A DNA stretch of 64,000 bases from Rhodospirillaceae bacterium (GTDB lineage Bacteria > Pseudomonadota > Alphaproteobacteria > UBA8366 > Aestuariispiraceae), in assembly GCA_002709955.1 (NCBI GenBank), contig PAQY01000012.1:83756-147755 (forward strand), in the 5' to 3' direction. A model generated the notes under the pieces. It had not been told where the DNA came from. It worked only from the letters and a program-made list of their open reading frames with translations, and did no database searches. Position numbers and translations under genes: made by a program. Shown here one piece after another: positions 45,712 to 59,311 of this stretch. Numbering within the stretch: the first letter of the stretch is position 1; every line of letters begins with the position of its first letter.

Positions 45712-45786
45712 GCGGGCGTAGCTCAGGGGTAGAGCACAACCTTGCCAAGGTTGGGGTCGAGGGTTCGAATCCCTTCGCCCGCTCCA
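45712..45786 (+). tRNA. tRNA-Gly (GCC)
   Basis: A 75-base tRNA with acceptor stem GCGGGCG/CGCCCGC, D arm GCTC...GAGC, anticodon stem CAACC/GGTTG around loop TTGCCAA (anticodon GCC), T arm GAGGGTTCGAATCCCTT, and an encoded CCA. Its 3' end faces the integrase gene 76 bases away, so it is the likely attachment site of the island. Confidence 0.97.
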
Positions 45787-45862: not shown

Positions 45863-46927
45863 TCACCACTCCAAGCGGTCTAATTTGCTTGCCGCGTTGG
45901 TCGCGAGAATTTGTCGCTGGACCCTTTTCGTATAAATTTCGGACGTTCGGGCTTCCCTGTGGCCATGTACGGCCATGATCTCATACTGTGAGCAATGTTC
46001 TTCCGCGAGAATTTCGCCGACCGATTTCCGAACGCCGTGGGCGCTGAGGCCGGAAAGACCCGCATCACGACACCAGCGCCGGAACAATCCGCCAAGCGAA
46101 TCTGGCGTGCTATAAGGTTTGCCCCGATTGGTGAGGAGATAGGGTTGGCCGGCAATTGATACAGGTCGCGTGGCACGCAAAAGAGCGGCTGTCATGGGAA
46201 TGTCCACTTCCGCCGATCCTTTCTTGATCGGCTGCCATCTCAGGTGCGCAACATCGTTTCGCATGACCTCATTGTCCGCGCCCAAGAGGATAACATCGCT
46301 AATTCGGGCTGCGGTGAATAGCAGAAGTGTGAGTACTAGATGTTGTTGCGTACCTTCCGGATAGAAAGACCGGAACGCTTGAAGCTGAACCTTTGTCCAA
46401 GGCTCCGCTCCATCGCCACCCGGGTCAATCCGACCAATGTCGAGAGCTGGATTGTGGTCAATCAAACCAGTTTCGACAGCCCATCGAAACATGCCTCGAA
46501 TTGCTTCGACCATGCTGTCGGCCCAAGCCGGGCGGTCTGAGAGCTTGTCGCGATACTGTACGATGGCAGCAGTCGGCATGAGCATCGGGTATTCCCCACA
46601 CTCATCTCGAAGTTGGCGGAGAAGAAACCTTCGTTTCTTTAAGGTGTGAGGCGAACTCAAACCATTCTCGACTCGGCCTTCCAAATAGGCCTGGTGCTTG
46701 TATGTCAGCCACGCGATGGATTTCGGAATCGCCCGCTCTTCCGGTCGCGCATCGATTGTCGCGACGATACCGGCACGTCCAGCATGATAATACTCCATGA
46801 AGTCGCGGTGGTTAGGCGAAATGGGGATGCGGATTCGTCGTTTCGGATTCCCTTCCACGCGAACACGGTATCGGAACTTTCCGTTGGGCATGCGCTCACG
46901 CAGAAGGCCGGGCAATTCAATTTTCAC
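45863..46927 (-). CDS. Tyrosine recombinase (island integrase)
   Basis: A protein of about 354 residues. The N-terminal part has a basic arm-binding region; a SAM-like core-binding domain follows (about 70-165), then the catalytic domain. The catalytic residues are Arg in LLFTAARISDV, Lys near IKKGS, His and Arg in LSAHGVRKS, His in VHGHREARTSEIYT, and Tyr in EIYTKR. I chose GTG 46927 because GGGAAGG precedes it and it overlaps the upstream small gene by four bases; a frame extends to 47008. It sits tail-on to tRNA-Gly, as expected for a tRNA-targeting integrase. Confidence 0.92.
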   Translation of the reverse strand: MKIELPGLLRERMPNGKFRYRVRVEGNPKRRIRIPISPNHRDFMEYYHAGRAGIVATIDARPEERAIPKSIAWLTYKHQAYLEGRVENGLSSPHTLKKRRFLLRQLRDECGEYPMLMPTAAIVQYRDKLSDRPAWADSMVEAIRGMFRWAVETGLIDHNPALDIGRIDPGGDGAEPWTKVQLQAFRSFYPEGTQQHLVLTLLLFTAARISDVILLGADNEVMRNDVAHLRWQPIKKGSAEVDIPMTAALLRATRPVSIAGQPYLLTNRGKPYSTPDSLGGLFRRWCRDAGLSGLSAHGVRKSVGEILAEEHCSQYEIMAVHGHREARTSEIYTKRVQRQILATNAASKLDRLEW

Positions 46928-47118
46928 GACCACACCTTCCCAGCCCAGTCTTTCATTCCTGGAACCTTCACATCCACAGCGTCGCCACCAACTGCTGCAA
47001 ACTCCCAACGCACCTCATCGATTTTCTGGATACAGCGGATCGGCTGCAATCCAACCTTGAGGATTGCGGCTGAGAATCGACGGATATCCGCCTCTGTAAT
47101 TTTCTGTCTGTCAGTCAT
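46924..47118 (-). CDS. Small conserved protein coupled to the integrase
   Basis: A 64-residue protein beginning MTDRQKITEADIRRFSAAI, with a basic helix then a beta-like tail. Short proteins of this type with an early KITEAD-like motif often lie immediately upstream of alphaproteobacterial island and prophage integrases. The function is unknown; directionality factor or accessory DNA-binding roles are conceivable. The stop overlaps the integrase GTG by four bases. Confidence 0.6.
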   Translation of the reverse strand: MTDRQKITEADIRRFSAAILKVGLQPIRCIQKIDEVRWEFAAVGGDAVDVKVPGMKDWAGKVWS

Positions 47119-48731: not shown

Positions 48732-49315
48732 CTATGGAAGGCTTCCAATCTTCACGCTGACCTTTAGAGGAACAGGCGACCTGACCATGAGCCAGCGAGC
48801 AATGGGTCGTCCTGTTATGGGAACCATATGAGGTGGTTTCGAGCCTATCGCTATCACCGTGGCGCGGTCTTGGAAGATCAGATTGAGCGGCGTTTGGTAT
48901 TGTTCATCAGTGAGCCGAAAACTCTGAATGGCAATACGGTTCGGCTCCATATTCTTGGCGACTTCAATAGTCTTGAATACATACGTTGATGGGAAGGATG
49001 GCTCGAAGGTTTCGAGGCGCTACACTGCTTCGGGTTCGCGGCACACCGTCGAGAAAGTGAGATTGGGGAAGCACTAAACGCGCTATAGGAATCGAACTGG
49101 GATCGCTTCGCGATGCGGTTCAGCGACTCGTCAAGGCACATAAGATGGGGGGCATTCTTCCAGAAGTAGATCGCCCGGCTCCGGCAAAGGCAATAGTCTG
49201 CCCGGTCGAGATAAAGGAAAATCGGATATGTGCTACCTGTGGCCTCTGTTGGATGCCAAGGAAGCGGGTGCTTTTCATTGAGCACTGAAGGCCCGCACGC
49301 GAAGTTTATCCCCAT
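48732..49315 (-). pseudogene. Degraded reading frame downstream of the ImmA-like gene
   Basis: A protein-like frame starts at ATG 49315, overlapping the ImmA stop, and stays plausible for about 80 codons (for example YLDRADYCLCRSRAIYFWK). After about 49080 sense continues in another frame (CFPNLTFSTVCREPEAV), meets a TAG near 49021, and goes on as TFEPSFPSTYVFKTIEVAKN to a stop at 48732. One frameshift plus one nonsense codon therefore break it. The encoded family is not recognised. Two unrelated chance frames are the alternative. Confidence 0.4.
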
Positions 49316-50235
49316 TGGCTCCCGGACACACTGCGGCGTGAAAAGACGCCGAGATCATGAAACAGAATGAATACCTGGTGTGTGTTCGTGAATCCCTCGA
49401 TCATACACTCGTGGTCTTCGCCGTTTATGTCTTTCAAGACAATTGTCTGAGGTGACGTAAAGCGCTTTCGGCCCAATGGAATTGCTGACCCGATCGGGCC
49501 GGTTGATGTGAATTGCTCCGTGTTCAAGCAAGCTCCAAAAAGCTCGGTGAAGCTTGGAGACTGAACTCTCCGTCGAAGCTTGGCAGAGTATCCTTGACCT
49601 CCCGAAATTCGCTCAGGCATGTACAGCACTAGAACCGCGCACGAACGATGGTTCTTCGATACGTACTGCCGAATAGACGCGTAGAGAGAAGCATTGAACT
49701 TCCTAGCCAAATTGATGGGGGTTTTTAATCCAAAATTGGCGTCATTCGACATGTTGACGAATGTGTCGAGTTGGAAAAGGATTTCCGCAGCAAAGACATT
49801 TGCTTCCTTGTCAAAAAGTTCAGCCGATTCTGGATCAAGTTCTTGCTCGCCATCCTCCACGTATGAATACATTGCTCTCTGCCAAGGCAAGAAACCGTGT
49901 GCTGCTTCATGAAAACCAACGAACCGCTTTTTGACCTCAATGAGAGACTTGTCGAGGCAAATCAGGCCCGACGGGGCGTGTATCAACCCGAGCACCTTTG
50001 ATATTGCGCGGCGAAGGACATCGCCAAACCCGCCCGCGTGTTTCCTGTAGTCAGTTATAGCGGACGTATCCAGCACATCCTCTCGAACCTCAGAAATCTT
50101 GGCCACTCGCATTATGGCTTCTGTGGGGGTCGGGAGAACATCTATCGCACCCGAATCGCGCAATGCCCTTTCCGCTTCTTGGCGAATTTTGTTGTACTGG
50201 ACTGCGTTTAAGGTGGAGTCGTCGGGAAGGATCAC
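49306..50235 (-). CDS. ImmA/IrrE family metallo-endopeptidase
   Basis: A 309-residue protein with the zinc-protease motif HEAAH (residues 109-113, VGFHEAAHGFLPW) and a downstream EANVFAAEIL (about 144-153) supplying the third ligand, the ImmA/IrrE arrangement. In ICEBs1 ImmA cleaves the paired ImmR repressor when its element is induced. Here the gene overlaps the XRE gene by four bases, forming the same repressor-protease pair, divergent from the ubiquitin-like operon. It probably relieves repression of that operon on an unknown signal. The C-terminal 130 residues are additional and may sense the signal. Confidence 0.88.
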   Translation of the reverse strand: MILPDDSTLNAVQYNKIRQEAERALRDSGAIDVLPTPTEAIMRVAKISEVREDVLDTSAITDYRKHAGGFGDVLRRAISKVLGLIHAPSGLICLDKSLIEVKKRFVGFHEAAHGFLPWQRAMYSYVEDGEQELDPESAELFDKEANVFAAEILFQLDTFVNMSNDANFGLKTPINLARKFNASLYASIRQYVSKNHRSCAVLVLYMPERISGGQGYSAKLRRRVQSPSFTELFGACLNTEQFTSTGPIGSAIPLGRKRFTSPQTIVLKDINGEDHECMIEGFTNTHQVFILFHDLGVFSRRSVSGSQWG

Positions 50236-50612
50236 TTCCGTTTCTCCGTTCTGATGAAACTCAAGAACCGCCTTAGCTCTGTCTCTTCCTCAATTGTTAG
50301 GTTATCGATGGCGAACGTAGCCGCGCGTCCGTGTTTCTCTTCGGACTTCCTCGCACCTTGAGTAGTTACGTAACCAGCACGTTCCATTAGGTTCTCATAC
50401 TTAACGTCCAAAGCGATTGAGAGTGAGTAGAGGATATGGGGAGAAGGTTTCGCAATCTTCCCCGTTTCGAGTTGACTAAGGTATGCGTTGGAAACTTCTC
50501 CATCCGTCGCCCTCTCTACATCTCTGAGAGATAATTCTTTTCCTATTCGCTCGCTACGTAAGAATGTTGATAGCCGATTCGTCGATTTAGGTTCCTGTTT
50601 GCTTCTGTCCAT
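50232..50612 (-). CDS. XRE-family repressor paired with ImmA-like protease
   Basis: A 126-residue protein with a Cro/C1 helix-turn-helix (about residues 13-75, ELSLRDVERATDGEVSNAYL then SQLETGKIAKPSPHIL) and a charged C-terminal tail. It lies head to head with the ubiquitin-like operon across 154 bases holding a symmetric set of four GCTAA boxes, its probable binding sites. Coupled to the ImmA-like gene, it is the likely repressor of both directions. Confidence 0.87.
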   Translation of the reverse strand: MDRSKQEPKSTNRLSTFLRSERIGKELSLRDVERATDGEVSNAYLSQLETGKIAKPSPHILYSLSIALDVKYENLMERAGYVTTQGARKSEEKHGRAATFAIDNLTIEEETELRRFLSFIRTEKRK

Positions 50613-50668
50613 TTTACATCCCCTACTTTATTGAAATCGATCAAATCACCAGAAAACTAGGCTGATTT

Positions 50669-50731
50669 GCTAATTTCAGCAAGCGCGCTAAATTTTCGCT
50701 TGACAAACTTAGCAATCCGCATTCCCTTAGC
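50669..50731. promoter_or_regulatory. Symmetric four-box operator between xre and ubiquitin-like operon
   Basis: GCTAA occurs at 50669-50673 and 50687-50691, and its complement TTAGC at 50709-50713 and 50727-50731. The spacing is 18 bases on each side and the whole set is mirror-symmetric about base 50700. A TTGACA -35 box (50700-50705) sits at the centre. This fits a dimeric repressor bound at paired sites controlling the rightward promoter. Confidence 0.6.
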
Positions 50732-50766
50732 GATGTTGTAACAGCCCAAACCAAAAGGAGGTTCAG

Positions 50767-51921
50767 ATGGCTAGCGCTAAGGACGAAATTGACATCGAAA
50801 AATGGTGCGAAACGCACGGTGATAAGGCAATTCCTATTGCTGACAGTTACACAGTGCGGCTGTGGGACGGAGATGGATTCGATGAAAAGCGACGCCTCGA
50901 TGACCGAAAGCCTACAGGTCGTCAAATCTTGGGTGCGTTTGGTCGACACCCTGCAGACGAATTCGAACTGCTGATGCTTAGCCGGGATTCGGTAATTGAG
51001 CGCGTGAATCTTGACGAAACTATCGATCTGGCCGCGCAAGGGCCGGAGCGGTTCTTCTCGTTTCGGACGGATCGGCTGCATAACCTGTCAATCGATGGCC
51101 GTCGTTTCTCATGGGGCGCGTCCTCCATTGAGGTCTCGTTGCTCCGTTTGATCGCTCGAATTCCGGAAGACTGTGATCTTTATTTTGAGGAGCAGGACGA
51201 AGCGGATCGTTTGCTTAAGGAAACAGATATCCTCGACTTGTCACAGCCCAACCTGGAAAAGGTCTACTCTCGGAAGCGGAAATGGAAGTTCGATGTACAG
51301 GGGGTGATACTAACGCTTGCCGAACCACTTATTCAGGTGCGTGACGCGCTTGTCCAGGCAGGGTTCGATCCTGACAAGGGGTGGATTGCGATCCTGAAAC
51401 GTAAAGGCGAACCGAAAGAGCAGGTCACGCTGGACTACCTGGTCGATCTGACGACCCCTGGTATTGAGCGTCTGCGGTTGACACCGGGCGAAATCAACAA
51501 CGGTGAAGCTGTGGTGAGCCTTCGGAAGGAGTTCGCTTTACTTCCAAAGGATGAGGAATTCCTAAACCGTCGTGGATGCGTTTGGGAAACCTTTATCGAA
51601 GGGAAGCGTCGCTGGTTGAAGATTCATGGATTTCATCTTCCGTCTGGGTACAACAAGGCGTCGGTGGACCTTTGTATTGACGTGCCTGAAGCATATCCGG
51701 GCGCCGCCTTGGACATGTTCTACTGTCATCCGCAATTAGTTCGTGCGAACGGCAGTTCGATAGCCCAGACCGATTCACGCGTCGATATTCAGGGCGTCCC
51801 GCATCAGATGTGGTCGCGCCACCTAAACGGATCGACGCGATGGAATCCTGCAAGCGACAGCGTCCTGACGCATATCGCAGTGGTTGATGAGTGCCTATTG
51901 CGGGAGGTTGGCGATGAATAG
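50767..51921 (+). CDS. Triple ubiquitin-like domain fused to a prokaryotic E2
   Basis: A 384-residue protein. Three beta-grasp multiubiquitin repeats are visible at about residues 27-101 (with PTGRQILGAFGRHPADEFEL and NLDETIDL), 104-171 and 173-240 (ending DLTTPGIERLRLTP). Residues 256-381 match the prokaryotic E2 family E: LKIHGFHLPSGYNKASVDL, YPGAALDMFYCHP and HQMWSRHLNGSTRWNP. Cys320 follows the strand where E2 enzymes place their catalytic region, but whether it is catalytic is unsure. No di-glycine tail exists because the E2 is C-terminal, so ubiquitin-like units must be released by cleavage or act as a scaffold. AAAGGAGG precedes the ATG. Operons of this kind were predicted as ubiquitin-like conjugation systems; antiphage use is inferred. 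Confidence 0.9.
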   Translation: MASAKDEIDIEKWCETHGDKAIPIADSYTVRLWDGDGFDEKRRLDDRKPTGRQILGAFGRHPADEFELLMLSRDSVIERVNLDETIDLAAQGPERFFSFRTDRLHNLSIDGRRFSWGASSIEVSLLRLIARIPEDCDLYFEEQDEADRLLKETDILDLSQPNLEKVYSRKRKWKFDVQGVILTLAEPLIQVRDALVQAGFDPDKGWIAILKRKGEPKEQVTLDYLVDLTTPGIERLRLTPGEINNGEAVVSLRKEFALLPKDEEFLNRRGCVWETFIEGKRRWLKIHGFHLPSGYNKASVDLCIDVPEAYPGAALDMFYCHPQLVRANGSSIAQTDSRVDIQGVPHQMWSRHLNGSTRWNPASDSVLTHIAVVDECLLREVGDE

Positions 51922-53311
51922 CGTTCGATCACTGACCCTGACCGTCGGCCAGCACAATAACGCCAAGCGCCATCTCTTTCCTGGTGACGGGCTTGAGGCG
52001 GCTGTGGTGCTGGTTTGCCGGCGGGTCGGGATGGAAAGCGAAAGATTAATAGTTCGGAAAGTGATCGCGGTTCCGTATGAGGATTGTTCTGTAAGGACAG
52101 AAGACAGGCTGACGTGGCCGGGTAGCGCCATTGAAGATGCTATGGACATAGCGGAAGATCATGGTGACTGTGTCATTCTTCTCCACAGCCATCCTGGCGG
52201 GTTCTTCGGGTTCTCCGAGATTGATGACCTCTCGGACAATACGACGATGCCATGCTTGTATTCCGCCATCCCCGGTCCGTCAGCGATTCATGGTTCCGCA
52301 ATCATGACACCGAACGGCGCTGTTCTCGCTCGCGTCTATCCAGGTGTTGGACAGGAGTGTGTGTTCCTACGGACGATGGTGGTGGGGCACGATATCAAAC
52401 ACTACGGTCGGGACATTCCTTCGCGTATCCTACACGGAACCGAAGGCATGAGGGATTTGTTTGGTTATTTGACGGTCTGCGTCGTCGGCGCTTCGGGCAC
52501 CGGCTCAATAATCATTGAACAACTGGCTCGAAACGGGATCGGCCACATTATTTTGATCGATTTCGATAAGGCAGAATGGAAAAACCTGAACCGAATTCTG
52601 AATTGTAAGGTTCGGCATGTCGAAACCGATGCTTACAAAACTGAGCTGCTGGCTGAATCAATCAGCGAGTACGCGCCATCTATACGGATCACTTGCATTA
52701 ACCGCTCAATCTTTGATCCGGCGGCGATAGAAGCGGCATCATCGGCGGACACAGTGTTCAGTTGTGTGGACAGACAACTGGGCCGCTCCGTCTGTGAAAG
52801 AATTTCTACTGCTTTCATTGCACCGCTGGTCGATCTTGGAGTTACGATCCCAACCCGAACGTTGCCTGACGGAACGGTCGTGGTATCTGACATGTGCGGG
52901 CGCATCGACTTCGTTAGACCTGACGGACCAAACCTATCGGACCGAGGGGTGATCACGCCCAAAGGGCTGTATGACGAGCACATTTTTTTGAATGCTCCAG
53001 ACGAGGCTATCGAGCAGGTTCGAAATGGTTATATCTCCGGTGTTGCTGAAGAGGCTCCTTCAGTGATCAACGTCAATATGGTCGCCGCCGCGCGAGCCTA
53101 TACCGAATGGACTATCCGGCAACTAGGGGGAAACTTGGATCCCAATGAAAGTGTTGCGACGATCCGGTTCTCTCTCTGCGCACGGGATGAAGACCACGTG
53201 GCAGAAGCGGATTACGATCACCAGACCCTGTTAGAACTGGGGCAGGGGTTCGCCTCTCCTCTTCTTGGATTTCCAGCCTTGGTGTCTCGCAAGATTGGAG
53301 AAGCTGCATGA
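51914..53311 (+). CDS. JAB peptidase fused to ThiF/E1-like activating enzyme
   Basis: A protein of about 465 residues. The N-terminal JAB/MPN domain (about 20-145) has the complete JAMM motif: His91-x-His93, Ser101, Asp104 in LLHSHPGGFFGFSEIDD. The C-terminal E1-like domain (about 175-400) has the nucleotide motif VCVVGASGTGSIIIEQL (GxGxxG-like at 192-197), the acidic IDFD at about 215-218 and NLNR (224-227), expected for adenylating a ubiquitin-like C-terminus. The E1 catalytic Cys is not certain. The protein could both activate and remove ubiquitin-like units made by the upstream gene. I chose ATG 51914, which overlaps that stop by eight bases; it follows GGGAGG. Confidence 0.92.
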   Translation: MNSVRSLTLTVGQHNNAKRHLFPGDGLEAAVVLVCRRVGMESERLIVRKVIAVPYEDCSVRTEDRLTWPGSAIEDAMDIAEDHGDCVILLHSHPGGFFGFSEIDDLSDNTTMPCLYSAIPGPSAIHGSAIMTPNGAVLARVYPGVGQECVFLRTMVVGHDIKHYGRDIPSRILHGTEGMRDLFGYLTVCVVGASGTGSIIIEQLARNGIGHIILIDFDKAEWKNLNRILNCKVRHVETDAYKTELLAESISEYAPSIRITCINRSIFDPAAIEAASSADTVFSCVDRQLGRSVCERISTAFIAPLVDLGVTIPTRTLPDGTVVVSDMCGRIDFVRPDGPNLSDRGVITPKGLYDEHIFLNAPDEAIEQVRNGYISGVAEEAPSVINVNMVAAARAYTEWTIRQLGGNLDPNESVATIRFSLCARDEDHVAEADYDHQTLLELGQGFASPLLGFPALVSRKIGEAA

Positions 53312-53637
53312 GGATTTTTCGATGGCTATCCCGTTGGTGGGATCGTAATGGTCCAAAAAGAAAGCTAATTCTGGTCGATGGCGACTCACCGCCTGAAATA
53401 ATTAGATCCCGAAACCTCTATTTGGCCAAGGACGATGGCGAGGATTGGTCTGTTGCGATGCGATGTCCTTGCGGGTGCGGCGACCGGTTGGAACTCATGT
53501 TAGCGACCGAGGCCAGGCCACATTGGTCTGTGCGGTCGAAGCCCAATGCTCCCCCAACACTGCAACCGTCTGTGTGGCGCAAAGCGGGATGTAAAAGCCA
53601 TTTCTGGGTTCGGGACGGTCGGATCGTCTGGTGCTAG
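53308..53637 (+). CDS. DUF6527 family protein
   Basis: A 109-residue protein with a basic N-terminus, a Cys-rich centre (Cys53, Cys55, Cys57 in MRCPCGCGDRLELML) and the DUF6527 C-terminal signature PSVWRKAGCKSHFWVRDG with Cys95, His98 and Cys109. The Cys/His set suggests a bound zinc. Proteins of this family accompany multiubiquitin, E2 and JAB-E1 genes and may process or dock the ubiquitin-like protein; a catalytic role is inferred. The ATG overlaps the E1 stop by four bases, so all three genes are translationally coupled. Confidence 0.88.
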   Translation: MRIFRWLSRWWDRNGPKRKLILVDGDSPPEIIRSRNLYLAKDDGEDWSVAMRCPCGCGDRLELMLATEARPHWSVRSKPNAPPTLQPSVWRKAGCKSHFWVRDGRIVWC

Positions 53638-53810: not shown

Positions 53811-54428
53811 CTAGTCGAGCTCCGATAGATCCCCGTTTAGTACCTCGTTTCGAATACGGCCAAGAAGATTGGATACGGATTGACCATTGTTCATGCTTGG
53901 CATGTATGGTGCTCGAACGACTATTTGATCATCCAATTCATCGGCTATCCTTGAGGCCAAACTGTTGATCGGGGAGTTCCCATCCCAGATGTATACATCA
54001 CATTCTTTATTAAACCGCGCTCCAGTAGAGAATGCATTCCGTGTCATATTTGAACTACCAACAATTCCGATGTTTGGTGTTCCGTTCTGAGAGGCGATGA
54101 AAACTTTCGCATGCCAACGTAGTCCCACCTTCAGCATGCAGGTGATATTGGCACCTGCTTTGGTCATGTTGTTCTTGAAATTCCGATAGGCTGGTTTCCA
54201 TGTCGCGTTGTGGATTCCGACGGTCGTAAGTGAAACTCCACTTTGGGAGCAAACATTAGCCAAAGAGCGTTCGCTACTTACTTGGTAAGTGGAGTTTTTG
54301 AAGTTGTCCTGGAAAAAGCCTGAACAGAGCAGAGCTTCGTCAACATAGTTAGAGGCTAGAGAAGAGATAATTACATCCCGAAACGTGTTTTGAGAACCTC
54401 GGGTACGCAAAACAATTGCTATTGGCAT
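53811..54428 (-). CDS. Phospholipase-D-fold (HKD) protein
   Basis: A protein of about 205 residues with one HKD-type motif: WHAKVFIAS (His, Lys) followed by IGIVGSSNMTRNAFSTG with the Gly-Ser-Ser-Asn that completes a PLD half-site, then a conserved Glu/Asp-rich strand. One motif suggests a homodimeric enzyme; such PLD proteins in defence islands are often nucleases or restriction-linked effectors. It lies convergent to the ubiquitin-like operon, with 173 non-coding bases between. A run of eight G immediately precedes ATG 54428, at the ribosome-binding position; a TTG at 54440 lies upstream in frame. Confidence 0.75.
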   Translation of the reverse strand: MPIAIVLRTRGSQNTFRDVIISSLASNYVDEALLCSGFFQDNFKNSTYQVSSERSLANVCSQSGVSLTTVGIHNATWKPAYRNFKNNMTKAGANITCMLKVGLRWHAKVFIASQNGTPNIGIVGSSNMTRNAFSTGARFNKECDVYIWDGNSPINSLASRIADELDDQIVVRAPYMPSMNNGQSVSNLLGRIRNEVLNGDLSELD

Positions 54429-54440
54429 CTCCCCCCCCAA

Positions 54441-54745: not shown

Positions 54746-55774
54746 TTATGAGTCCAATGACACACCACCATGTACTACTTCATCGATATTGGCTTCAACA
54801 AGGTACGACTCGATATCCCAGAATGACCATTCAGTTGGGAGATGATACAAGCCGCGACATTTCTTGGCCCATCGCCCCATCTCCTTGGCTTTATTGGTGC
54901 AGAAGGACTTGGCTTGGAAAGAGAAATTTGTGCTGCGTCGATCTCGATTTAGAAGGAACTTCAGTGCTTCTTTGATCCTACCTAGAGAGCTACCATTAAG
55001 ACTATTGAGTTTTAGGTGCTCTTTTGTGATGTAGCGCGCGGCTCCTTCAATGCCGAATGCGTCTTTCCCGTCTTCGTCGATATCATGGCGAATGCGTCGC
55101 ACATCGACCACGTTCCCGGACCCAAAGCTTCGGACTAATGCCCGTCGAACCTGTTCGTTCGATGCGTCGAAGGCATAGAATAGGCAGTGGAAATGGAGTT
55201 TAATCACGACGTCATCAGGATCGAATTGATCAATTGATGCCGGTTTTGAGAGTTGTTCACGCGGAAGGTTCTGGGCAATGATAACGTCATCCTCAAATCG
55301 GCCTTTCGCGATGCACTGTAACCCGGATTGTTTCAGAACTCGCCCAATCTCGCGCCGCCACCAGCTAATTTTCAAATCGAACTCTGTTAGGGATATAGCC
55401 TCTAAATTTATGGTGACAAACCACATCTCGTTTTCCGGCAAGATGTGAAAACCCTGAACTGATTGCGCATTGCGGATTTGGTAATTCCTTGACGGTGATG
55501 AGGATTGGGCAGCATTGACGGCCCATTCGCTATCAGGGCCGTAACCTGAAACTCTTCTGAGACACTTTGGGCATCCACGATGTTCGCACGGCTGCTTCTT
55601 GGAGCATTGTGAGAACCGCTGATGGCTTCTAACAAATGAATCATAGCTACCAGCAAGCTCTCGTACCGCAGCGTAGGCTCGATGCGGGTTCCGATCCGTG
55701 AGCAATGCGACCTGTGTCTTCTCGTCGCCTTCATTGATTGCCTTCGCCATCTGTCGGCTATGTGGGTTGATCAT
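54746..55774 (-). CDS. HUH-type Rep-like protein with an N-terminal Cys cluster
   Basis: A 342-residue protein. A Cys cluster at residues 57-71 (CSKKQPCEHRGCPKC) looks like a zinc-binding knuckle. Three motifs in HUH-endonuclease order follow: motif 1 MWFVTINLEAISL (about 117-129), motif 2 KLHFHCLFY with His194-Phe-His196, and motif 3 ARYITKEHL with Tyr248 and Lys251. That is the pattern of single-tyrosine Rep or relaxase-like enzymes that nick single-stranded origins and join DNA ends. No transfer or plasmid maintenance genes are nearby, so it may serve island replication or defence. Inverted repeats just upstream are candidate recognition hairpins. Confidence 0.65.
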   Translation of the reverse strand: MINPHSRQMAKAINEGDEKTQVALLTDRNPHRAYAAVRELAGSYDSFVRSHQRFSQCSKKQPCEHRGCPKCLRRVSGYGPDSEWAVNAAQSSSPSRNYQIRNAQSVQGFHILPENEMWFVTINLEAISLTEFDLKISWWRREIGRVLKQSGLQCIAKGRFEDDVIIAQNLPREQLSKPASIDQFDPDDVVIKLHFHCLFYAFDASNEQVRRALVRSFGSGNVVDVRRIRHDIDEDGKDAFGIEGAARYITKEHLKLNSLNGSSLGRIKEALKFLLNRDRRSTNFSFQAKSFCTNKAKEMGRWAKKCRGLYHLPTEWSFWDIESYLVEANIDEVVHGGVSLDS

Positions 55775-55988: not shown

Positions 55989-56114
55989 GAAGGGTTTTAG
56001 GATTACCCCTAGAAACCTTTTCGACAGCACTACCAACATAATTGTAATCGTCAGATTGGAATATTTACAAAACTAAGGTATATGCTTTGTTACAACTTGG
56101 AAGGGTCAGGATAC

Positions 56115-57257
56115 ATGGTTAACGAATCGATAGATGAAGCTAGTGACGAACACTCGGTTTTAATAGAAGACCCAGAGGGTTTGGATGATCCGTTCGTTAT
56201 CGGTTGGGGTGAGTATCCGTTAGATGCGGTGTTTGTAAGGACAGAACCGCGCACTGTTGGCGACGTTGTGGATCGTATCGAACGCAACCGATATGTTCTC
56301 GATCCAGATTTTCAAAGGGACTTCGTTTGGCAAGTAGCTAAGCAATCCAAGCTCATTGAGAGTTGTATAATGAGGATTCCGCTTCCGGTCTTTTATGTTG
56401 CTGAAGCTTCAGACGGCAGGATCATTATCGTTGACGGTTTGCAACGACTCACAACTTTTTATAGGTTTATGCATAATCACTTCAAGCTCACAGGACTAGG
56501 AGCAAACGATCCTAATTTAACCCATCCGCTTGAGGGAAAGTATTTTAGAGAGTTACCAATTGCGTTGCAGGAGCGTGTCGCGGACACATCAATTACATTG
56601 TACATCCTTGATGCTAAAGCGCCGGAGCGGGCGCGTTTAGATATTTTTGAGCGGGTCAATAGTGGCGAACCATTGACGCGACAACAGATGCGTAATGCGC
56701 TTTACAATGGACCAGCCACAAGTTGGCTCAAGGATGCCGCGTCGAGTCATTTGTTTCGAAGTGCTACTGGGTTTTCGCTGAATAAAAGGACCATGCGTGA
56801 CCGCGAGGCAATTAATCGCTTCTGTGCTTTCAAACTTCTTGGCGTGAATGCGTATCGAGGTGATATGGATACGTTCTTGGCAATAGGTTTAAAGGAGCTT
56901 GAAAGCCTAACGGATTCAGCCCGAAAGAGCTTGCGTGAGGAGTTCGATGGGGTAGTTAAACTGAATGCTGAACTTTTTGGTAAGCACGCCTTCCGCAAAT
57001 CTCTCTCAAGTAATCCACATTCTGCAAGATCAGTAATAAACATATCTTTATTTGAAGTGTGCACAGTTACTCTGACAAAGATTTTGTCGCTATCGTCTGA
57101 TGATCACAGGATTATTAAAGAAAAGATTGTTGATCTTCTTTCTGATTCTGAGTTCCTCGATTCAATAACGTATTCAACAAATAGCTCTAGGCAGGCACGT
57201 AGCCGGTTTGAACGAATGGAAAGAATGGTTTCTGCTATACTTGAGGAAACATTATGA
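56115..57257 (+). CDS. DUF262 domain protein
   Basis: A 380-residue protein with an N-terminal DUF262 domain: LDPDFQRDFVWQVAKQSKLI (about 62-82) and the nucleotide-site motif IIIVDGLQRLTTFYRF (about 103-118), with Leu in place of the second Gln of the usual DGQQR. DUF262 proteins have a ParB-like NTP-binding fold and include the GmrS half of GmrSD modified-DNA restriction enzymes. The helical C-terminal half has a NKRTMRDREAINRFCAFKLL block. No HNH DUF1524 nuclease motif is seen. I chose ATG 56115 because GGTCAGGA precedes it. It overlaps the ATPase gene by four bases. Confidence 0.87.
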   Translation: MVNESIDEASDEHSVLIEDPEGLDDPFVIGWGEYPLDAVFVRTEPRTVGDVVDRIERNRYVLDPDFQRDFVWQVAKQSKLIESCIMRIPLPVFYVAEASDGRIIIVDGLQRLTTFYRFMHNHFKLTGLGANDPNLTHPLEGKYFRELPIALQERVADTSITLYILDAKAPERARLDIFERVNSGEPLTRQQMRNALYNGPATSWLKDAASSHLFRSATGFSLNKRTMRDREAINRFCAFKLLGVNAYRGDMDTFLAIGLKELESLTDSARKSLREEFDGVVKLNAELFGKHAFRKSLSSNPHSARSVINISLFEVCTVTLTKILSLSSDDHRIIKEKIVDLLSDSEFLDSITYSTNSSRQARSRFERMERMVSAILEETL

Positions 57258-58342
57258 CGTTGCGCTCTGTAGATGCCATAACAATGGATGGTTTCAAGTG
57301 TTTTGACCATCTACGCATGGAGCTGGGCCAACTTACGCTTGTCACAGGTTTTAATGGTGGCGGTAAGTCAACCGCCATACAGCCATTGTTATTGCTAGCG
57401 CAAACACTTCGGCTCGGAATCCTAACTGCCTTACCACTAAACGGACCAATGGTGAAGCTTGGAACAGCGGGTGATATTACTCCTAACGAAGATGGCTCTC
57501 TAACAAATCTTACAATCGAGGGTCAGGGAACAACGATTTCGGTGAAGCCTAAACTGCGTTCTGGAGATCGTGTTCTTCAACTCGTTGAGTCCCTTAGTGG
57601 TGCACTTGATACGCCGCTAGCTTGCTCCCTTAGCATGTTGTCGTACCTTGGTGCGATCCGAATTGGGCCGGAGGACTCGTTCCCGATTCCTGAACAATTC
57701 GATACCCCGGACGTTGGCCTCGATGGACGCTTTGCGCCGTACTGGTATGATCATCATGTCGACGAGGATGTAGACGAAGCCAGACGTTTTCCAGGAGAGG
57801 AGGCGAGTGTTTATCGGAAGCACTTGGACGCTTGGCTTGGTAGTATGTTTCCTGGTGCACAAGCCAACGTCCAAAACGTTGTAAACCTCTCCCAAATGAA
57901 TCTTCAATTTCGACTGTCATCGCTTGGAGCATGGCGTCGGCCTTCAAATATTGGATATGGTCTCACGTACGTTTTTCCGATCCTTGTATCGCTGCTTTCA
58001 GCAAAACCAGGGCAGATAATCATTATTGACAGTCCCGAATCTCATCTTCACCCATCAGCTCAGTCTCAGATGGGGAGAATATTGGCGACTTTTGCCCAAG
58101 CAGGAGTGCAGATTTTAGTTGAAACACATAGTGACCACCTTTTGAACGGAGTACGTTTGGCAATCCGCGAACAGGTTCTTCCATCAGATTGCCTGCGAGT
58201 ACATTTCTTCAGGGGCCCTAAAGGCAGGGACCACGGCGTTACAACACCAAGTTTTGGTGCTGGCGGAGAAGTGTATGAGTGGCCAGACGGTTTCTTTGAT
58301 CAGAATGAGAAAGACTTGTCACGACTTGCGGGCTGGGCCTGA
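57254..58342 (+). CDS. AAA-type ATPase (DUF3696/OLD-like)
   Basis: A 362-residue SMC/RecF-like AAA ATPase. Walker A is LVTGFNGGGKSTAI (about 30-42). The ABC-like signature region is followed by Walker B QIIIIDSPESHLHPSAQSQM and a VETHSDHLLNGVR switch, typical of the AAA_15/DUF3696 group. It lacks a Toprim nuclease domain, so it probably drives or gates its partners. It is the middle gene of a coupled three-gene cassette: start overlapping DUF262 by four bases, stop four bases before the next start. Similar ATPase plus DUF262 sets occur in antiphage systems. Confidence 0.88.
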   Translation: MTLRSVDAITMDGFKCFDHLRMELGQLTLVTGFNGGGKSTAIQPLLLLAQTLRLGILTALPLNGPMVKLGTAGDITPNEDGSLTNLTIEGQGTTISVKPKLRSGDRVLQLVESLSGALDTPLACSLSMLSYLGAIRIGPEDSFPIPEQFDTPDVGLDGRFAPYWYDHHVDEDVDEARRFPGEEASVYRKHLDAWLGSMFPGAQANVQNVVNLSQMNLQFRLSSLGAWRRPSNIGYGLTYVFPILVSLLSAKPGQIIIIDSPESHLHPSAQSQMGRILATFAQAGVQILVETHSDHLLNGVRLAIREQVLPSDCLRVHFFRGPKGRDHGVTTPSFGAGGEVYEWPDGFFDQNEKDLSRLAGWA

Positions 58343-58345
58343 GAA

Positions 58346-59311
58346 ATGAAGTTCTACTTAAATGAGGCTTCGATTCACGGACAGTTTGCGGACACACAAG
58401 AGTTTCGCGTTGCGCTTGAGGCTATACTAGCGGGACGCTCCCGATCTACGGTCCTCGCAGCAATGCGAACTGTACCGGAACTGGCGAACCGCCCCGTGCT
58501 GCATGACCAGACTTTTCGTCAAGTTGTGCAGACTTGGCGAGGGTCTCCACTCGCAGGCAGCTTGCTAGCATGGGTTGGGAAAAATGGGCCGTTTGTTCAT
58601 GATGATAGGCTTCTTGAGGAAGACGACTTGTTCCATTGCCTTGGGGTAGAAGTTACTGACGGCGGACTGGGTGAGGCGGGCCGTCGAGCCAAGGCGAGCG
58701 AGAATTCTGCTTCAATGAGTTTTCGTGGAGGTGATCCTGATTTCGCGCAATCTCCATTACCGATCGTTCATGGTTTCTTGGAAGAGCCATTCGGCACGTA
58801 CTCAGTTGAGAATTTTTGGGATGTCGATGACGCAATCGCAGCGATCATGGAATGGGAGAAACCAGCCAATAACTGGCAGGAAATGATTGAGATCGCTCGT
58901 GTCAGGTTTCCTAACGTTCTTCTCCCGGACACACTGTATAGAGACGTTCGAATTGCTAGGGAGCCTTTCAGTGCGGTAATTAGAGACCAGTTCTATGTAT
59001 TGTTAGGCTTTCTTAACGAATATATGAAGGGACGAGACGAGAACGGACAGGAAGGGCCTAGATCCAGGGCTATTCTGAAGGAGCATTTTAAGGGGAGAAG
59101 AGCATTGTTCTCGCCAGAATCAAGTTCGAACAAAGATGACTTTAGGACGGAAATGACCTTTCCAAACCCGGATGGCGCTGGAATGATTTTCGCGCATTGG
59201 CATGGCAAAATTAGTCATAGGTTCTTTCGCATGCACTTCGAATGGCCTACCCCTGCCGCTACCGATAAAGTTAAAGTTCTTTATGTTGGCCCAAAACTAA
59301 CAAAGGCTTAA
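58346..59311 (+). CDS. Unknown third protein of the DUF262/ATPase cassette
   Basis: A 321-residue protein starting MKFYLNEASIHGQFADTQEF. The N-terminal two thirds are mostly helical and match no fold I recognise. The C-terminal block is distinctive: EMTFPNPDGAGMIFAHWHGK then ISHRFFRMHFEWP, ending KVKVLYVGPKLTK. That block recurs in hypothetical proteins near defence genes and may be the effector or target-sensing module. Gene position makes it the third member of the system; from memory, Menshen (an antiphage system with a DUF3696-type ATPase) has a similar make-up. No nuclease motif is evident. Confidence 0.75.
   Translation: MKFYLNEASIHGQFADTQEFRVALEAILAGRSRSTVLAAMRTVPELANRPVLHDQTFRQVVQTWRGSPLAGSLLAWVGKNGPFVHDDRLLEEDDLFHCLGVEVTDGGLGEAGRRAKASENSASMSFRGGDPDFAQSPLPIVHGFLEEPFGTYSVENFWDVDDAIAAIMEWEKPANNWQEMIEIARVRFPNVLLPDTLYRDVRIAREPFSAVIRDQFYVLLGFLNEYMKGRDENGQEGPRSRAILKEHFKGRRALFSPESSSNKDDFRTEMTFPNPDGAGMIFAHWHGKISHRFFRMHFEWPTPAATDKVKVLYVGPKLTKA

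Follow-up and report, generated by a model that had tools for sequence, protein, structure and literature searches.

Results

Genes and Features of the Locus

The window, by which is meant the entire 64,000-nucleotide stretch that was analyzed, contains a three-gene operon for ubiquitin-like proteins and a divergently transcribed pair of regulatory genes. The relevant features are as follows.

45712-45786, forward strand: tRNA-Gly, next to the integrase gene
45863-47008, reverse strand: tyrosine integrase, adjoining tRNA-Gly; probable left end of an island
49306-50235, reverse strand: M78 (ImmA/IrrE) metallopeptidase, CapP-like (Pfam Peptidase_M78, E = 1e-5, above the cut-off), with the HExxH motif H109-E-A-A-H113 and a C-terminal GAF-like domain at about residues 190-299
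50232-50612, reverse strand: XRE repressor, CapH-like (Pfam HTH_3)
50669-50713: candidate operator of 45 bp, with inverted 16-mers GCTAATTTCAGCAAGC and GCTTGACAAACTTAGC and a 13-bp spacer
50700-50705, forward strand: TTGACA, probably the -35 hexamer for bub, within the right operator arm and conserved in most relatives
50767-51921, forward strand: BubA-BubB fusion of 384 aa (Pfam Multi_ubiq, E = 2e-17; Prok-E2_E, E = 3e-30), in which three Ub-like beta-grasp domains extend to Gly246 (base 51504) and are followed by an E2-like domain without a conserved Cys
51914-53311, forward strand: BubCD, a JAMM/JAB domain fused to an E1/ThiF adenylation domain, matching PDB 9ea4
53308-53637, forward strand: DUF6527 protein (Pfam DUF6527, E = 7e-24), with CPCGC and Cys-x2-His motifs

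The bub genes overlap by 8 nt (BubA-BubB and BubCD) and 4 nt (BubCD and DUF6527), and the XRE and M78 genes, divergent from bub, overlap by 4 nt. All five frames are conserved in other species, and a chance origin is therefore excluded. The BubA-BubB protein matches the solved structures of BubA (9d59, E = 5e-39) and BubB (9eav, E = 1.5e-34). In a sequence search BubCD was aligned end to end, over residues 5-455, with Citrobacter BubCD (9ea4, E = 7e-106). The Pfam matches of BubCD are ThiF (E = 8e-22) and Prok-JAB (24.7 bits, slightly below the cut-off of 25). The third Ub-like repeat receives no Pfam call; its counterpart in Citrobacter BubA, by alignment, is the third beta-grasp domain. By sequence comparison, the operon at 50767-53637 is a Bub operon of Iyer 2006 type 6e. 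Row 6e of that survey lists the same gene set, with a polyUbl-E2 fusion in some species and an E2 in which the cysteine is missing ("inactive").

An initial annotation of this DNA had placed three overlapping genes for a triple Ub-like-E2 protein, a JAB-E1 protein and a DUF6527 protein here. These genes are present, and the Pfam families expected from that annotation were recovered, with Prok-JAB at the marginal score given above. The same annotation took the genes to be complete for the activation, transfer, and removal of a ubiquitin-like modifier; the proteins are as named, but a set whose E2-like domain lacks a conserved cysteine is not a canonical one. The divergent XRE repressor and ImmA/IrrE-type peptidase were also correctly recognized, but the peptidase gene lies outside the interval of 50232-53637 that had been assigned to the system.

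The operon is located within a stretch of lower G+C content, at about 46.5-59.3 kb, between the tRNA-Gly and integrase genes and a tRNA-Val gene. No island att repeat of at least 13 bp was found. Between the bub and Nsn genes are a PLD-like protein (53811-54440, reverse strand) and a 342-aa protein with no family assigned (54746-55774, reverse strand). The Nsn genes, at 56082-59311, match PADLOC NsnA, NsnB, and NsnC over their full lengths and make up another candidate defence system within this island.

Active Sites of the Bub Proteins

Residues of BubA-BubB are numbered from the first Met and those of BubCD without the start Met. In the alignment of 106 BubCD sequences the JAMM residue E27 is conserved in 104, and H90, H92, S100, and D103 are conserved in all 106. 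In the nucleotide loop, S193, T195, and S197 are conserved as well. The E1 cysteine at position 327 is variable and appears in 52 of the 106. The fused BubA-BubB form, as judged by ORF length, occurs in 87 of 104 loci. No conserved Cys is found in the E2-like domain among 104 BubA-BubB sequences, the best column holding Cys in 31; W349, S350, and R351 of this domain are invariant. The transfer step thus cannot be the usual cysteine relay, and a canonical E1-E2 ubiquitin cascade was ruled out since the E2 catalytic cysteine is not conserved in these homologues.

The junction between the Ub-like and E2-like domains is formed by N245, G246, and E247, which are conserved in 94, 100, and 88 of the 104 sequences, respectively. 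The separate BubA genes of two loci (L024 and L031) stop precisely at the junction glycine (...QTEG, then the stop codon), and the Citrobacter BubA sequences deposited in the PDB terminate in ...NNG. As judged from these sequences, BubA-BubB is probably a precursor that the BubCD JAMM domain processes by cleavage after Gly246, between NNG and E, which would expose a C-terminal glycine. The E1 domain of BubCD would then adenylate the Ubl at this glycine, and BubB would serve as an E2-like partner without a cysteine. Conjugation by the bub operon is a predicted activity.

In the DUF6527 protein, residues C53, C55, and C57 (CPCGC), S88, C95, and H98 are invariant among 21 sequences, and the Cys/His motif is probably a zinc site. 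The structural model of this protein is confident (pLDDT 88), and a search of the PDB with it provided no match over Z 4.2.

The XRE Repressor and the M78 Peptidase

The PADLOC profiles capH and capP match the window XRE protein and peptidase weakly, with E values of 1e-5 and 2e-12, respectively, the latter covering only profile positions 52-162 of 242. At other Bub loci the capP profile gives E values of 2e-60, corresponding to a better-matching CapP than that of the window. The HExxH motif is present in 17 of 17 homologues of the pair, and the HTH of the XRE protein contains an SNxYLSQ stretch that is invariant in an alignment of 12 homologues. In the AlphaFold model of the peptidase the N-terminal half is of poor quality (mean pLDDT 61), and the part from about residue 190 onward is good. 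When the model was compared by VIA-align, Z scores of 10.7, 10.3, and 10.1 were obtained for IrrE (3dte and 3dti) and PprI-ssDNA (8sln), respectively. The C-terminal part aligns with CapP (7t5t) at Z 8.6 and an rmsd of 3.1 over 132 residues, and the C-terminal domain of the model is similar to PAS-type sensor domains as well. By these profile matches and model comparisons, the XRE and M78 genes probably encode a divergent relative of CapH/CapP, the peptidase having a predicted IrrE/CapP fold.

The GAF-like domain of PprI mediates its activation by ssDNA, and the cleavage of CapH by CapP is likewise ssDNA-activated (PMC10904395). Because PprI and CapP respond in this way, an ssDNA trigger is proposed for the M78 peptidase by analogy; ssDNA sensing by the window pair is a property carried over from distant relatives.

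Regulators at Other Bub Loci

The 106 Bub loci compared comprise the window itself, one IMG/VR contig, 80 loci from GTDB, and 24 from plasmids. In the profile scan of genome contigs a single-protein query gave no match, and matches were obtained with an alignment query. The upstream regulators were assigned to classes by bit-score thresholds that we set. The window-type XRE with M78 is found at 17 of the 106 loci and the window-type XRE alone at 3. A PADLOC-type CapP is present at 18, CapK with CapS at 15, and a UvrD-type protein at 15, of which 13 show HExxH in the retrieved ORF. The remaining loci carry another HTH gene (10), RHH with XRE and M78 (9), a PD-Lambda-2_B-like gene (7), an XRE-M78 fusion (1), or a WYL protein (1); 8 are unclassed and 2 are cut. 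Outside the window-type set, most loci thus have either an M78 protein of another type or CapK with CapS.

Directly upstream of bub, on the same strand, a protein of 1130-1160 aa combines M78, UvrD helicase, and PD-(D/E)XK domains (L042, 317-3709). It is also encoded at L044, L046, L048, L053, L058, L063-L066, and L070. This protein is a possible regulator or effector and is not among the Cap switches of PMC13373217. In a further arrangement, an RHH gene, a GNAT or hypothetical gene, XRE, and M78 are divergent from bub (L012, L013, L014, L037, L039, L040, L041, and L050). Short TAGCTA repeats occur in the intergenic regions inspected at the RHH loci, and the window's operator is absent there.

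The association of XRE and M78 genes with Bub operons that the initial annotation had raised as a matter for tabulation is thus recurrent, and it extends over unrelated species. As a regulatory design it is not new. CapW or CapH with CapP, both DNA-damage-responsive, are carried by 219 of 544 published Bub operons (PMC13373217), so that both the bub operon itself and the idea of an upstream damage switch are already published.

The Candidate Operator

Where the XRE is of the window type, the intergenic regions share an operator pattern of GCTAAGTTTGTCAAGC, a spacer of 12 to 15 bp, and GCTTGACAAACTTAGC. The two arms were scored together, over 32 positions, in a scan of intergenic regions. The window operator has 4 mismatches in 32 to the consensus, all in the left arm, and the -10 of the window bub promoter is weak. 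Among the 20 Bub loci with the window-type XRE, 17 showed the operator with 0-7 mismatches in the scan; L035 (3) and L089 (0), where the scanned stretch had been misplaced, bring the number to 19, and at the twentieth, L031, the copy is degenerate (10 mismatches). Since the consensus was derived from some of the scored loci, the other regulator classes provide the fair comparison; at about 83 scanned Bub loci with other regulators the operator is absent, with at least 11 mismatches, as in shuffled sequences. With a strict form of the pattern, which the window's own site does not fit, neither 385 genomes of the class nor IMG/VR yielded a match.

The left arm mirrors the right and may serve the promoter of the repressor itself. 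The 45-bp operator is a new detail with respect to the Bub literature searched, in which no mention of it was found and which did not cover Ye 2026 and Gong 2025. At L026, L067, L092, L103, and other loci a GC-rich hairpin (CCGGC...GCCGG) appears just upstream of bubA, in the presumed 5' leader. This 5'-UTR hairpin is present at 8 of 17 loci of the window-type set vs about 11% of shuffles, and is absent from the window.

Distribution of the Operon and of the Switch

Bub-type E2 genes above the Pfam cut-off were detected in one genome among 43 from the order, two among 385 in a sample of the class, and six among 398 from the phylum. BubCD was matched in 82 plasmid records and in none of 50,697 phage records. 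An assignment of the bub operon as a phage gene set was rejected on the basis of the phage records and the single match in IMG/VR. That match (L116) is the only IMG/VR Bub operon found; it has a PADLOC-type CapP and lies on a 44-kb contig catalogued as viral.

A tblastn search with the window peptidase provided 16 plasmid records, which represent 12 distinct loci. Seven are Bub loci and four (L117-L120) lie beside another operon with Multi_ubiq and ThiF proteins. The twelfth, from Clavibacter (29% identity), has no ubiquitin-like operon alongside. The operator is found with 7, 4, and 8 mismatches at L117, L118, and L119, respectively, and L120 is without it. In L117-L119 the JAB and E1 genes are separate. 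The E1 and E2-position proteins tested from these operons gave no match to Bil structures, and the operons are described by their content. With the peptidase next to ubiquitin-like operons in 11 of 12 loci, in a sample that is small and drawn from plasmids only, the pair seems to follow more than one kind of such operon.

Discussion

Proposed Switch and Alternatives

We consider it likely that the window holds a Bub operon on a defence-type genomic island under the control of a divergent damage switch of the CapH/CapP type. In the resting state the XRE protein would occupy the dyad at 50669-50713, which includes the bub -35 hexamer, and keep bub off; it would probably repress its own gene as well. 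ssDNA arising from damage or infection would activate the M78 peptidase, and the repressor would be cut and bub expressed. This cleavage step is modelled on PprI/DdrO and CapP/CapH, for which it has been shown. We infer repression, ssDNA-triggered cleavage, induction, and any role in defence; phage protection by Bub operons had not been demonstrated as of PMC13373217. The initial suggestion that the operon is silent until the repressor is cleaved fits the regulator-specific candidate operator over the bub promoter, with cleavage itself a predicted step.

The switch had further been called one of mobile-element style. ImmR/ImmA pairs reportedly control integrative and conjugative elements such as TnSmu1 of Streptococcus mutans, and the integrase gene lies 2.3 kb beyond the peptidase gene. 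The pair could thus be an ImmR/ImmA- or CI-type switch for excision or transfer of an integrative element, with bub merely a neighbor. This is unlikely, since the operator covers the bub promoter and tracks the XRE protein at nearly all Bub loci of its class, on plasmids and chromosomes and in unrelated species, and since the plasmid peptidase adjoins a ubiquitin-like operon at all distinct loci except that of Clavibacter. The term is better replaced by a damage switch of the CapH/CapP (PprI/DdrO) type, given that on plasmids the pair travels with ubiquitin-like operons.

The nature of the trigger is a separate matter. The distant relationship of the pair to CapH/CapP and the PAS-like character of the peptidase C-terminal domain would accommodate a signal unrelated to DNA damage, for instance a protein of a phage or a small molecule bound at the GAF-like domain. 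We regard such a signal as possible but doubtful, because the better structural matches are to the ssDNA-triggered PprI/IrrE and CapP and because the remaining known Bub regulators report DNA damage too. As to the output, the E2-like domain without a conserved cysteine and the variable Cys at E1 position 327 would suit a system in which no protein is conjugated and the Ubl and E2-like domain act non-covalently, for example as a regulated assembly of the Ubl. The conservation of the adenylation motifs, the C-terminal glycine, and the JAMM site argues against this, and it appears quite improbable.

For the damage switch, a broader reading can be proposed, to which we give an even chance of being correct. 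The XRE and M78 genes may constitute a subfamily of CapH/CapP that serves mainly ubiquitin-like operons, moving with the 45-bp operator as a portable damage-inducible promoter cassette. The recipients would be Bub operons and a second type of ubiquitin-like operon with separate JAB and E1 genes. The defined and conserved operator makes derepression of the Bub operon by DNA damage through the XRE protein directly testable, and it provides a sequence tag for finding further operons with the same switch.

Comparison with Known Systems

The Citrobacter Bub system (BubA, BubB, and BubCD; 9d59, 9eav, and 9ea4, respectively) has the same domains as the window operon, and the BubCD proteins can be aligned end to end. 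BubA of Citrobacter and that of the window share the ending ...LRLTPxxxNNG. At two plasmid loci of Citrobacter, L015 and L021, a DUF6527 gene follows BubCD, as in the window, whereas CapK and CapS are found upstream in place of XRE and M78. The window operon shows no essential difference from type 6e of Iyer 2006 (polyUbl, inactive E2, JAB-E1, and metal-binding protein).

In CapH with CapP (Lau et al. 2022), which accompanies CBASS and Bub operons, an XRE and M78 pair also lies beside the operon promoter, and CapP and the window peptidase both combine M78 with a C-terminal GAF-like domain. The window pair differs as a divergent subfamily, as reflected in the capP E values given above, and has an operator of its own. 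PprI/IrrE-DdrO of Deinococcus shares the peptidase fold and the repressor-protease logic with the window; it governs a chromosomal damage regulon, whereas the window switch adjoins its operon. The Bil system (BilABCD) resembles the window operon in that a single operon encodes JAB and E1 together with a Multi_ubiq protein. In Bil the JAB and E1 genes are separate and the E2 has a Cys, whereas in the window JAB and E1 are fused, the E2-like domain is without a conserved cysteine, and a DUF6527 gene is present.
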